A DNA stretch of 64,000 nucleotides, from contig NZ_CP139979.1 of NCBI RefSeq assembly GCF_034424525.1, positions 4,859,501 through 4,923,500 of the forward strand, written 5' to 3'. Position 1 is the stretch's first letter. Every line of letters starts with the position of its first letter. Origin of the DNA: Sphingobium yanoikuyae. GTDB taxonomy: Bacteria > Pseudomonadota > Alphaproteobacteria > Sphingomonadales > Sphingomonadaceae. Below are positions 17,231 to 20,880 of this stretch, in pieces. The notes under the pieces are model-generated. The model searched no databases. It saw only the letters and a program-made list of their open reading frames with translations, and was not told where the DNA came from. Both the position numbers and the translations under genes were made by a program.

Positions 17231-17396
17231 ATTGCGTTGTCGGACCTGCTTCCGGCGATACGGGGCTTTTGTCCTTGCGATCGGATCGGTTGACCCCATT
17301 TCTGTCCCGGCCCGATCGGGTTCATGCTATGATGTCTGGGTGCGCCCTGGCATCGCTGGACCGAATCGAACGGAACAGGAACAATCGGGGGCTCGC

Positions 17397-19334
17397 ATGG
17401 ACTTTCGAGATAGTGAACAAGGTGGAAACGGCGACGTGGCGACGGTAATGGACGAGCGTATCGAGGATCTGGTGGACAAGGCCGAGCCCAAGGCTGCCAA
17501 GGGCAAGGCGACCGAGTCCGCGTCGTCCAAGATTCATGAGCGTCGTTTTCATGTCGTGACGGATTCGTCGCGCGATGCGCTGCTGACCGAATTCGGCAAG
17601 GATACGCTGAACGATCGCTATCTGCTGCCCGGCGAGAGCTATCAGGATCTGTTCGCCCGCGTCGCCGCCGCCTATTCGGACGATGCCGACCATGCGCAGC
17701 GCGTCTATGACTATATCTCCAAGCTCTGGTTCATGCCGGCAACGCCCGTGCTGTCGAACGGCGGCACCGGCCGCGGCCTGCCGATCAGCTGCTATCTGAA
17801 CTCGGTTGACGACAGCCTGGAAGGCATCGTCAACACCTGGAACGAGAATGTCTGGCTCGCCTCGCGCGGCGGCGGCATCGGCACCTATTGGGGCAGCGTG
17901 CGCGGCATCGGTGAGCCGGTTGGCCTCAACGGCAAGACTAGCGGCATCATCCCCTTCGTCCGCGTGATGGATTCGCTGACCTTGGCGATCAGCCAGGGCT
18001 CGCTGCGTCGTGGCTCGGCCGCCTGCTATCTCGACGTCTCCCACCCGGAGATCGAGGAGTTCCTGGAAATCCGCAAGACGAGCGGCGACTTCAACCGCAA
18101 GGCGCTCAACCTGCACCATGGCGTGCTGCTGACCGATGAGTTCATGGAAGCGGTGCGCGATGGCAGTGATTTCAACCTGCGCAGCCCCAAGGACCAGTCG
18201 GTTCGCGGCACCGTCAATGCCCGCGCCCTGTTCCAGAAGCTGGTCGAGGTCCGCCTTGCCACCGGCGAACCCTATATCGTCTTCTCCGACACGGTGAACC
18301 GGATGATGCCCAAGCATCATCGCGACCTGGGGCTCAAGGTCTCGACGTCGAACCTCTGCTCGGAAATCACTCTGCCGACGGGCCGCGACCATCTCGGCCA
18401 GGATCGCACGGCGGTCTGCTGCCTCTCCTCGATGAACCTGGAAACCTGGGATCAGTGGAAGGATCATCCGACCTTCGCGGAAGACATCATGCGCTTCCTC
18501 GACAATGTGCTGCAGGACTATATCGACCGCGCCCCGCCGGAAATGGCCCGCGCCAAATATAGCGCCAGCCGTGAACGCTCGGTGGGCCTGGGCGTCATGG
18601 GCTTCCACAGCTTCCTGCAGGCACGCGGCATCCCGTTCGAAGGCGCCATGGCCAAGTCGTGGAACCTGCGCATCTTCAAGCATATCAATGCCAAGGTGAA
18701 CGAGGCGTCGATGATGCTGGCGCAGGAGCGCGGGCCGTGCCCCGACGCCGCCGACCAGGGCGTGATGGAACGGTTCAGCTGCAAGATGGCGATCGCGCCG
18801 ACCGCGTCGATCTCGATCATCTGCGGCGGCACCTCGGCCTGTATCGAGCCGATCCCGGCGAACATCTACACCCACAAGACGCTCTCGGGCAGCTTCGCGG
18901 TGAAGAATCCCTATCTGGAAAAACTGCTGGTCGAAAAGGCCAAGGATTCGAGCGCCGTATGGAACTCGATCCTGGAACGCGGCGGCTCGGTCCAGCATCT
19001 CGACTTCCTCACCCAGGAAGAAAAGGATGTGTACAAGACCAGCTTCGAGATCGACCAGCGCTGGCTGCTCGAACTGGCGGCCGATCGCACCCCCTATATC
19101 GACCAGGCGCAGTCGCTGAACCTGTTCATCCCGGCCGATGTCGAGAAGTGGGATCTGCTGATGCTCCACTTCCGCGCCTGGGAACTGGGCATCAAGTCAC
19201 TCTATTATCTGCGCTCCAAGTCGGTGCAGCGCGCCGGCTTCGCCGGTGGCGTGGAAGCGGACAACACGATCGACGCCCCCAAGTTCGAGATCGGCGAGAC
19301 CACCGACTATGACGAGTGCCTCGCCTGCCAGTGA
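17397..19334 (+). CDS. nrdA: Ribonucleoside-diphosphate reductase, alpha subunit (class I)
   Basis: A 645-residue catalytic subunit that reduces ribonucleotides to deoxyribonucleotides for DNA synthesis. Active-site residues are visible: the N-C-E triad N319-C321-E323, the redox pair C132 (PISCYLNS) and C341 (AVCCLSS), the tyrosine pair in SLYYLRS, and the C-terminal shuttle cysteines C641 and C644 (CLACQ). No N-terminal ATP-cone is present, so the usual dATP off-switch seems missing. ATG 17397 is preceded by a GGGGG ribosome site; a later in-frame ATG at 17448 is also possible. It is separated from nrdB by a DUF559 gene. Confidence 0.95.
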   Translation: MDFRDSEQGGNGDVATVMDERIEDLVDKAEPKAAKGKATESASSKIHERRFHVVTDSSRDALLTEFGKDTLNDRYLLPGESYQDLFARVAAAYSDDADHAQRVYDYISKLWFMPATPVLSNGGTGRGLPISCYLNSVDDSLEGIVNTWNENVWLASRGGGIGTYWGSVRGIGEPVGLNGKTSGIIPFVRVMDSLTLAISQGSLRRGSAACYLDVSHPEIEEFLEIRKTSGDFNRKALNLHHGVLLTDEFMEAVRDGSDFNLRSPKDQSVRGTVNARALFQKLVEVRLATGEPYIVFSDTVNRMMPKHHRDLGLKVSTSNLCSEITLPTGRDHLGQDRTAVCCLSSMNLETWDQWKDHPTFAEDIMRFLDNVLQDYIDRAPPEMARAKYSASRERSVGLGVMGFHSFLQARGIPFEGAMAKSWNLRIFKHINAKVNEASMMLAQERGPCPDAADQGVMERFSCKMAIAPTASISIICGGTSACIEPIPANIYTHKTLSGSFAVKNPYLEKLLVEKAKDSSAVWNSILERGGSVQHLDFLTQEEKDVYKTSFEIDQRWLLELAADRTPYIDQAQSLNLFIPADVEKWDLLMLHFRAWELGIKSLYYLRSKSVQRAGFAGGVEADNTIDAPKFEIGETTDYDECLACQ

Positions 19335-19340
19335 TCAGAT

Positions 19341-19395
19341 TCCCTCTCCCTGTGGGAGAGGGAGGGAGCCGCGCAGCGGCGGAAGGGTGAGGGCG
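19341..19395. repeat. Left inverted repeat of DUF559 cassette
   Basis: This begins 7 bp after the nrdA stop. It contains a perfect 10-bp hairpin (19341-19350 with 19354-19363), then a GC-rich spacer and the run agggtgagggcga. The whole is an imperfect inverted copy of 19741-19800. The DUF559 start codon directly follows. Confidence 0.85.
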
Positions 19396-19764
19396 ATGCG
19401 CAATTACCGCGATCTGCCTTCAGGGGCCGTGGATCAGGCCCGCGCTCTCCGCCGTAACGCCACGGAGGCTGAAAAACGTCTCTGGCGTGCCTTGCGTGAA
19501 CAGCTTCCGACCGTGAAATTCCGCCGCCAGGTGCCCCATGGTGCCTATGTCGCGGATTTCCTCTGTTTTTCTGGCAAGCTGGTCGTCGAGGTCGATGGCG
19601 CAAGTCATGCGGAGAGCGCTGAGCAAGATGCTGTCCGAACCCGTTATTTCGAGACCCAGGGCTATCAGATCCTGCGTTTCTGGAACCATGAAGTCATGGA
19701 AAATACCGAAGGCGTCGTAGCGGTCATCGCGGCGCGTCTCTCGCCCTCACCCTCCCACGCCTGA
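19396..19764 (+). CDS. DUF559 nuclease-like protein inside nrd operon
   Basis: A 122-residue protein of the DUF559 family, distantly related to very-short-patch-repair and other PD-(D/E)xK endonucleases. After an N-terminal helix pair (ATEAEKRLWRALR) come FRRQVPHGAYVADFLC and KLVVEVDGASH, giving the likely metal-binding residues D54, E65 and D67, then a final strand-helix FWNHEVMENTEGV. Its stop codon lies inside the right inverted repeat, so the last residues (SPSPSHA) are encoded by repeat sequence. It interrupts nrdA and nrdB, unrelated in function, which points to insertion as a cassette. Confidence 0.88.
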   Translation: MRNYRDLPSGAVDQARALRRNATEAEKRLWRALREQLPTVKFRRQVPHGAYVADFLCFSGKLVVEVDGASHAESAEQDAVRTRYFETQGYQILRFWNHEVMENTEGVVAVIAARLSPSPSHA

Positions 19765-19800
19765 CGGCGCGGGCCCCTCCCTCTCCCGATGGGAGAGGGG
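19741..19800. repeat. Right inverted repeat of DUF559 cassette
   Basis: This is the imperfect reverse complement of the left repeat. It has the run tcgccctcaccct, a GC-rich spacer, and a 9-bp hairpin (19779-19787 with 19791-19799, loop gat). It overlaps the 3' end of the DUF559 gene and ends 28 bp before the nrdB start. Confidence 0.85.
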
Positions 19801-19827: not shown

Positions 19828-20880
19828 ATGCCCCTTCTTCAAGCCTCCAAGGTCTACAAGCCCTTCGAATATCCCTGGGCCTATGAATTTTGGAAGCGCC
19901 AGCAGCAGCTCCACTGGCTGCCCGAGGAAGTGCCTCTGGGCGAGGATTGTCGTGACTGGGCGCAGAAGCTCAGTGACCATGAGCGCAACCTGCTGACCCA
20001 GATTTTCCGCTTCTTCACCCAGGCCGACGTGGAAGTGCAAGATTGCTACCACGAGAAGTACGGCCGCGTGTTCAAGCCGACCGAGATCAAGATGATGCTG
20101 ACCGCGTTCAGCAACATGGAAACGGTCCATATCGCCGCCTACTCGCATCTGCTCGACACGATCGGCATGCCCGAAAGCGAATATTCGGCCTTCCTCCAAT
20201 ATAAGGAGATGAAGGACAAGCATGACTATCTCGCCCAGTTCGGCGTCGATACGGACGAGGATATCGCCAAGACGCTGGCGATGTTCGGCGGCTTCACCGA
20301 AGGCCTCCAGCTCTTCGCCTCCTTCGCGATGCTGATGAACTTCCCGCGCTTCAACAAGATGAAGGGCATGGGCCAGATCGTCACCTGGTCGGTCCGCGAC
20401 GAAACCCTGCATTGCGAGGGCATCATCAAGCTGTTCCACAGCTTCGTGAAGGAACGCGACTGCCTGACCGCGTCGGTCAAGGACGACATCATGGACATGT
20501 GCCAGAAGACCGTCCGGATCGAGGACGCGTTCGTCGACCTGGTCTTCGAAATGGGCCCGGTTCCCGGCATGACGCCCAAGGACATCAAGAAATATGTCCG
20601 CTACATCGCCGACTGGCGCCTGGGGCAGCTGGGCCTCAAGCCCATCTACATGATCGACGAGCATCCGCTGCCTTGGCTGACCCCGCTGCTCAACGGCGTG
20701 GAGCATGCCAATTTCTTCGAAACCCGCGCGACCGAATATTCGAAGGGCGCGACCCGTGGCCAGTGGAACGACGTCTGGGACGCGTTCGACCGCCGCAAGA
20801 AGCTCAAGGGCGCCGAAGCGGCCAATGTCGACGAAAGCGATCCGGACATGTTCAAGGCCGCCGGCATCGCGGCGGAATAA
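19828..20880 (+). CDS. nrdB: Ribonucleoside-diphosphate reductase, beta subunit (class I)
   Basis: A 350-residue radical-generating subunit. The carboxylate-bridged metal site is shown by E98-x-x-H101 (METVHIAAY) with the radical tyrosine Y105, and by the second pair in RDETLHCEG. E69 (DVEVQD) and the TEGLQLFASF helix add ligands. It forms the holoenzyme with NrdA; electrons pass through its C-terminus. No ATP-cone is present here either. ATG 19828 has GCGGAG upstream. An 18-bp hairpin starts directly after its stop codon. Confidence 0.95.
   Translation: MPLLQASKVYKPFEYPWAYEFWKRQQQLHWLPEEVPLGEDCRDWAQKLSDHERNLLTQIFRFFTQADVEVQDCYHEKYGRVFKPTEIKMMLTAFSNMETVHIAAYSHLLDTIGMPESEYSAFLQYKEMKDKHDYLAQFGVDTDEDIAKTLAMFGGFTEGLQLFASFAMLMNFPRFNKMKGMGQIVTWSVRDETLHCEGIIKLFHSFVKERDCLTASVKDDIMDMCQKTVRIEDAFVDLVFEMGPVPGMTPKDIKKYVRYIADWRLGQLGLKPIYMIDEHPLPWLTPLLNGVEHANFFETRATEYSKGATRGQWNDVWDAFDRRKKLKGAEAANVDESDPDMFKAAGIAAE

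Follow-up and report, generated by a model that had tools for sequence, protein, structure and literature searches.

How does a small nuclease gene come to stand between nrdA and nrdB, in an operon of essential genes, and are the hairpins at its borders part of the answer? The question is raised by a stretch of 64,000 nucleotides of the Sphingobium yanoikuyae genome (contig NZ_CP139979.1, positions 4,859,501 to 4,923,500; hereafter, the window), in which a gene of the DUF559 family occupies the nrdA-nrdB junction. The DUF559 family is widespread. An initial annotation, made from the sequence alone, had read the gene and its borders as a small mobile cassette similar to elements associated with repetitive extragenic palindromic (REP) sequences. 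The reading favoured here, with a probability of roughly 55%, is that of an autonomous, hairpin-ended, homing-like nuclease unit, which resembles the RAYT-REPIN system but carries a Vsr-fold nuclease that presumably cuts DNA and thereby has the unit copied.

The hairpin-ended unit

The features of the locus are the following (window coordinates):

19342-19799: hairpin-ended DUF559 unit, 458 bp, between nrdA and nrdB
19342-19396, + strand: left terminal repeat, with hairpin 1 (19342-19362), hairpin 2 (19368-19380) and a G-rich tail (19381-19393)
19342-19362: left hairpin 1, CCCTCTCCC-TGT-GGGAGAGGG
19396-19764, + strand: gene of the DUF559 (PF04480) PD-(D/E)XK/Vsr-fold nuclease, 122 amino acids
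19741-19799, - strand: right terminal repeat, with tail, hairpin 2 (19754-19773, its loop containing the stop codon) and hairpin 1 (19779-19799)
17232-19334, + strand: nrdA, the upstream host neighbour (open reading frame (ORF) as listed; stop codon 19332-19334)
19828-20880, + strand: nrdB, the downstream host neighbour (ATG at 19828)

The two ends are inverted copies of each other: 48 of the 55 left-end positions are identical, and the score of 27.5 compares with at most 15.5 at 2940 random places of the window examined in the same geometry, which bears out the imperfect inverted copies of about 55 bp described initially. Each end, to which a single internal hairpin had been assigned, contains two hairpins, together with a G-rich tail pointing toward the DUF559 gene. 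Hairpin 1 has the form CCCTCTCCC-3 nt-GGGAGAGGG in both ends, and hairpin 2 is of a GC type. As had been claimed, the gene fills the space between the repeats; its start coincides with the inner edge of the left repeat, and its stop codon (19762-19764) falls in the loop of hairpin 2 on the right, the last residues of the protein thus being encoded by the repeat. Repeat-encoded C-terminal residues, for example SPSPSHA or PHPNPSPEGEGL, are also seen in many other DUF559 proteins (L001-L005, L046, L162).

At the nrd site, the left end aligns and folds in 12 of the 13 species that were examined, and right-end hairpin 2 has three doubly compensated base pairs among 11 sequences recovered from 13 species. 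The pattern CTCTCCC(0-12)GGGAGAG occurs five times in the whole genome; four of these copies belong to the ends of the cassettes L001 and L002, and one lies elsewhere. The reversed pattern, taken as control, does not occur in it. In the stretches searched, no match to an Rfam family attained the gathering score. A sub-threshold match to the small RNA sX4 (23 of 70 bits) lies over the left end on the - strand (19319-19455), and this RNA may derive from a hairpin-ended unit of the same kind.

The DUF559 nuclease

The assignment of the 122-residue ORF (19396-19764) to DUF559 is firm (E 2.1e-38; 131 bits against a curated cut-off of 20.6). DUF559 and MTES_1575 are the only Pfam families that it matches, and a Y1 (HUH) transposase is not among them. 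Nine residues, E26, R44, Q45, D54, E65, D67, H71, D78 and R81, are invariant across 19 DUF559 proteins; the PD-(D/E)XK-type residues D54, E65, D67 and H71 are among the invariant columns both in these 19 and in a set of 54 proteins, and are intact in the window protein. The gene is under purifying selection, the ratio of nonsynonymous to synonymous substitution rates at the nrd site having a median of 0.21 (86 usable of 91 pairs).

The structure model of the window protein (predicted local distance difference test score 88.9) has as its fold neighbours, in this order, the DUF559 structure 3hrl, the homing endonuclease I-Bth0305I and, close behind, Vsr; the predicted model adopts the catalytic-domain fold of the EDxHD homing endonucleases. 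Unlike I-Bth0305I, the gene lies between the nrdA and nrdB ORFs, not in an intron or intein, and has hairpin ends of its own. From Vsr itself, the protein is set apart by a score of 15.1 bits with the Vsr model TIGR00632, far below the cut-off of 97.85. A defence function was considered and rejected, the PADLOC matches being weak and covering only part of large proteins.

The nrdA-nrdB junction in relatives

Matches to nrdA were found in 93 of 94 genomes (80-99% identity over a 498-base query); the junctions compared are those of the 30 most similar matches, and the host tree is built from nrdA and nrdB DNA alone. In 14 of these 30 species the junction contains the unit; of the 16 junctions that lack it, five retain the left-end hairpin, and the other 11 have a short gap or DNA of another kind. 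Among the species without the unit are the two closest relatives (nrdA 99% and 98% identical), which supports the cassette reading. On the host tree, presence of the unit requires nine changes as compared to a mean of 10.2 after shuffling (159 of 500 shuffles as low). The units at this site fall into two types by protein as well as by ends, and each type has good support by itself. When the types are placed on the tree of the genes that flank them, five changes are needed (shuffled mean 4.9), and a one-clade placement is rejected (approximately unbiased test, p 4e-26). On neither side of the junction do the adjoining 60 bases show an excess likeness of flanks within a type (112 and 486 of 500 permutations as high), and a weak hint of such likeness appears 60-300 bases into nrdB (45 of 500). 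Because presence and types are scattered over the nrdAB tree and the junction-side flanks are no more alike within a type, the site-bound nrd lineages change hosts without clearly carrying their flanks along.

The grouping of the nrd-site genes, together with the sharing of both flanks by 114 of the 130 genus pairs whose proteins are at least 70% identical, at first favoured a vertically inherited, fixed operon member. For the nrd site this explanation is rejected by the host tree, over which presence is patchy and the types are scrambled; it is kept for one other lineage, clade R. Neither do all sphingomonads carry the gene here, nor are the repeats confined to this place, as a fixed member would have had it.

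In relatives, the nrdA-nrdB gap (L014-L040) is a general turnover site, where CGTC-type REPs and various kinds of small ORF take each other's place; CGTC-like repeats stand separately in the junction (L016, L019). At three loci (L029, L033, L038), the right end of the nrd cassette seems to have a second unit, lacking a gene, nested in it.

Units at other sites and in other bacteria

The host genome has six DUF559 genes, five of which have such ends and one of which (L006) does not, and the family is present in 85 of the 94 genomes of the genus. Three samples of loci were scored, all biased toward high-scoring relatives. The genus sample comprises 75 loci (the six of the host genome, 29 from a genus search and 40 from the upper part of a ranked list; five are at the nrd site), of which 71 have inverted ends scoring at least 17, while 296 control windows shifted within the tested loci reach at most 15.5. 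With most DUF559 loci of the genus sample bounded by repeats, the cassette and its likeness to REP-associated elements stand. An empty junction cut by the nuclease is not supported: where the unit is absent, the junction contains other DNA or one leftover hairpin, and a target duplication was not seen. In the class sample, DUF559 occurs in 93 of 289 genomes, and 19 of the 30 best loci score above all 177 controls. Among named loci across bacteria, which share three loci with the class sample, 56 of 79 exceed all 444 controls (57 of 80 before L236, a run of N, was set aside); the named loci include Pseudoxanthomonas, Luteimonas, Herbaspirillum, Mesorhizobium, a Chloroflexi bin and a Gastranaerophilales bin. 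Other operons have DUF559 units too: they lie in sufB-sufC of Sphingomonas parapaucimobilis (L162, where the upstream flank of L003 matches), in paaD-paaZ (Deinococcus) and in yqeY-dnaG.

The ends follow the nuclease lineage even at unrelated sites, mainly in one clade. For genus pairs without a shared flank, mean end similarity is 32-49 where protein identity is at least 55% (47 pairs, including 41 within clade M) and 14-15.6 in the remaining 2190. Clade M, defined as at least 61% identity to L046 (a limit set after the list had been seen; the next gene, in G077, has 60%), occupies several unrelated sites with the same ends. Lineages differ in how closely proteins and flanks go together, the rank correlations being 0.92/0.88 in clade R, 0.52/0.62 in P, 0.28/0.37 in Q, -0.06/0.07 in N (five loci) and 0.09/0.16 at the nrd site.

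Units without a gene

Similar repeats are found elsewhere both with and without a DUF559 gene, as the initial annotation had led one to look for. The host genome contains 57 hairpins CCCTCCC(0-14)GGGAGGG (reversed control: one), many of them paired about 98 bases apart; the pairs form units whose ends are in most cases most like those of cassettes L003-L005. The exact hairpin type of the window has only one copy outside cassettes in this genome.

Genomes that have an active clade carry dispersed units with such ends but no gene. All 13 genomes that have a clade-M gene also contain the exact clade-M end motif, as do 12 of the 81 that have none (Fisher 1.7e-9; 94 genomes); any gene-less clade-M copy is present in six of 13 versus nine of 81 (p 0.0055). 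These statistics ignore the kinship of the genomes. In total, 29 gene-less copies were tallied in the 13 genomes and 17 in the 81, two contig-end hits of one genome having been set aside, one of which (L338) is a gene-bearing unit cut by the contig end. The gene-less units of G029, G031 and G059 measure 122-155 bases, with a mean identity of 0.80-0.92 in the interior and about 0.60 in the flanks (20 measured of 21 given and 24 seen; the three left out are L324, whose right part differs, L332, which lacks a partner, and L338). Like miniature inverted-repeat transposable elements (MITEs), they are short, dispersed, bounded by inverted repeats and devoid of a gene; unlike in MITEs, their partner would be a DUF559 nuclease instead of a classical transposase. 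In the compared sites, none of which offered a clean pre-insertion allele, no target duplication turned up.

Outside several hairpins (flanks of L319-L326 and L333-L337; L087, L099) there is a recurrent, loosely conserved stretch of the GCGGACG type, which may belong to the unit as an additional part or may be a preferred target.

Mechanism and alternative explanations

The anatomy of the unit, the link between enzyme and ends and the scrambled distribution over the nrdAB tree are established by the data. The likeliest driver of spread, we infer, is the nuclease itself, by cutting hairpins. It would recognise the hairpins of its own ends, in single-stranded or cruciform form, and nick or cut there; through repair of the break, the site would then acquire a copy of the unit or of a derivative lacking the gene, in the manner of homing endonucleases. 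The paired palindromes may also permit deletion of the unit, one hairpin remaining. At four sites (cassettes L002, L003 and L004 and the gene-less unit L090), genome G075 shows a single hairpin in place of the two-hairpin unit of G000, with flanks that match, less exactly to the right of L004. Since the more distant G036 has both L004 and L090, the single-hairpin sites of G075 appear to have arisen by loss, through deletion between the paired palindromes.

Several observations weigh against the homing-like unit. For L004 and L090, parsimony favours loss over gain. No intact pre-insertion site was found for five cassettes and 12 gene-less units searched in G093, G075 and G036 (15 of 20 stretches aligned), nor a clean empty target at the clade-M unit of G093, in Azospirillum replicons or at two E. 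coli repeat sites; the sites were occupied or held single-hairpin alleles, other inserts or replaced DNA. Target-site duplications were likewise not seen in the compared sites, all of which lack a clean pre-insertion allele for comparison. The 15 nrd-site proteins stand together in the protein tree, but L053 falls inside (two changes; weak support, 94/18), so that they are not strictly one clade, and the two unit types may be separate arrivals. Over all pairs without a shared flank, the rank correlation of ends and proteins is 0.077, within the permutation range (maximum 0.119), and some lineages, such as clade R with its rho of 0.92/0.88, look vertical. Four of the 75 genus, 11 of the 30 class and 23 of the 79 named loci are not above controls, the compensated pairs in hairpin 2 are split 7 to 4 and may reflect few events, and in E. 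coli the hairpin-tail repeat stands on the right side only of the DUF559 gene ycjD. The inclusion of L053 and a drop of the gene-less tally from 31 to 29 lower our confidence slightly.

Moreover, the nrdA-nrdB gap also exchanges inserts unrelated to DUF559, and host recombination could therefore move any insert there. Ordinary homologous recombination in nrdA and nrdB would then swap the intergenic segment, with the unit as a passenger and the nuclease uninvolved. The conservation of nrdA over the query is sufficient for this, and the hint of within-type likeness farther into nrdB agrees with it; the tract that such exchange should leave is absent from the 60 junction-side bases, and clade M, with the same ends at several unrelated sites and dispersed gene-less copies, is poorly explained. 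We consider recombination as the sole cause unlikely, though deserving of serious weight. Transposition in the manner of RAYTs is a rather improbable alternative: the nuclease would handle the hairpins as single-stranded DNA and move gene-less doublets without break repair. In its favour are compensated stem changes and the layout shared with RAYT-REPIN systems, namely a small gene between inverted palindromes, genes mostly bound to their sites and gene-less doublets dispersed in the genome, clearest for clade M; the enzyme, in contrast, has a Vsr/PD-(D/E)XK fold and is no Y1 transposase, and the GTAG tag, as described in PMC3733652, is not beside either window hairpin. The CGTC-tagged REPs, which according to the same source seemingly lack a dedicated transposase, are likewise palindromic repeats and are common in alphaproteobacteria, the class to which the host belongs; the window ends lack the CGTC tag. 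Quite improbable, finally, is a Vsr-like repair or stress nuclease flanked by ordinary terminators or mRNA-stabilising palindromes. The Caulobacter DUF559 protein VsrA does cause an SOS response in cells without cytosine methyltransferase (PMC12907096), and a T-run follows one right end (L003); terminators, however, are not expected to be mutual inverted copies (71 of 75 loci), to match the clade of the nuclease or to be dispersed as gene-less pairs.

Possible wider role and E. coli ycjD

Should DUF559 genes drive hairpin repeats across bacteria, the essential-gene operon nrdAB would be a natural homing site. A more general proposal, for which we would offer somewhat less than even odds, is that DUF559/YcjD nucleases are the enzyme partner of bacteria-wide, hitherto orphan palindromic repeats consisting of a pyrimidine/purine hairpin and a G-rich tail. 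They would constitute a third kind of REP system, driven by nuclease homing instead of transposition and moving gene-less copies in trans, with ycjD of E. coli K-12 as the laboratory representative. A large set of intergenic repeats would thereby gain an enzyme, and the multiplication of REP-like palindromes without RAYT would become testable in the laboratory, for example with ycjD in E. coli K-12. In the literature covered, no title or abstract ties the DUF559/ycjD nuclease to repeats or deals with the repeat letters or repeat-encoded peptides; bioRxiv and most subscription journals are outside this scope, and novelty is judged only within it.

E. coli ycjD, located between sapF and fabI, belongs to the DUF559 family; a 901-base query is covered to at least 80% in 3362 of 5426 genomes, and the ycjD-type repeat occupies a median of 14 places per genome. 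Copy number seems higher with ycjD (16 versus 9 of 25 spread rows), which is a lead only, the strains being related and gene status being taken from coverage and confirmed in one row; three rows counted as lacking ycjD have 10, 10 and 15 copies. In three genomes without ycjD, efflux genes lie beside sapF in its stead, so that the locus is no simple empty site.

The intergenic place of a clade-M cassette (L069) has four different contents in the four close relatives G093, G000, G036 and G075, one of them another hairpin pair. In E. coli tkt-ypfG (L347, L353-L358), one spot is occupied, depending on the strain, by a ycjD-type hairpin with tail or by GCCGGATG..TTATCCGGCCTAC, which we take to be a classical REP-like sequence.
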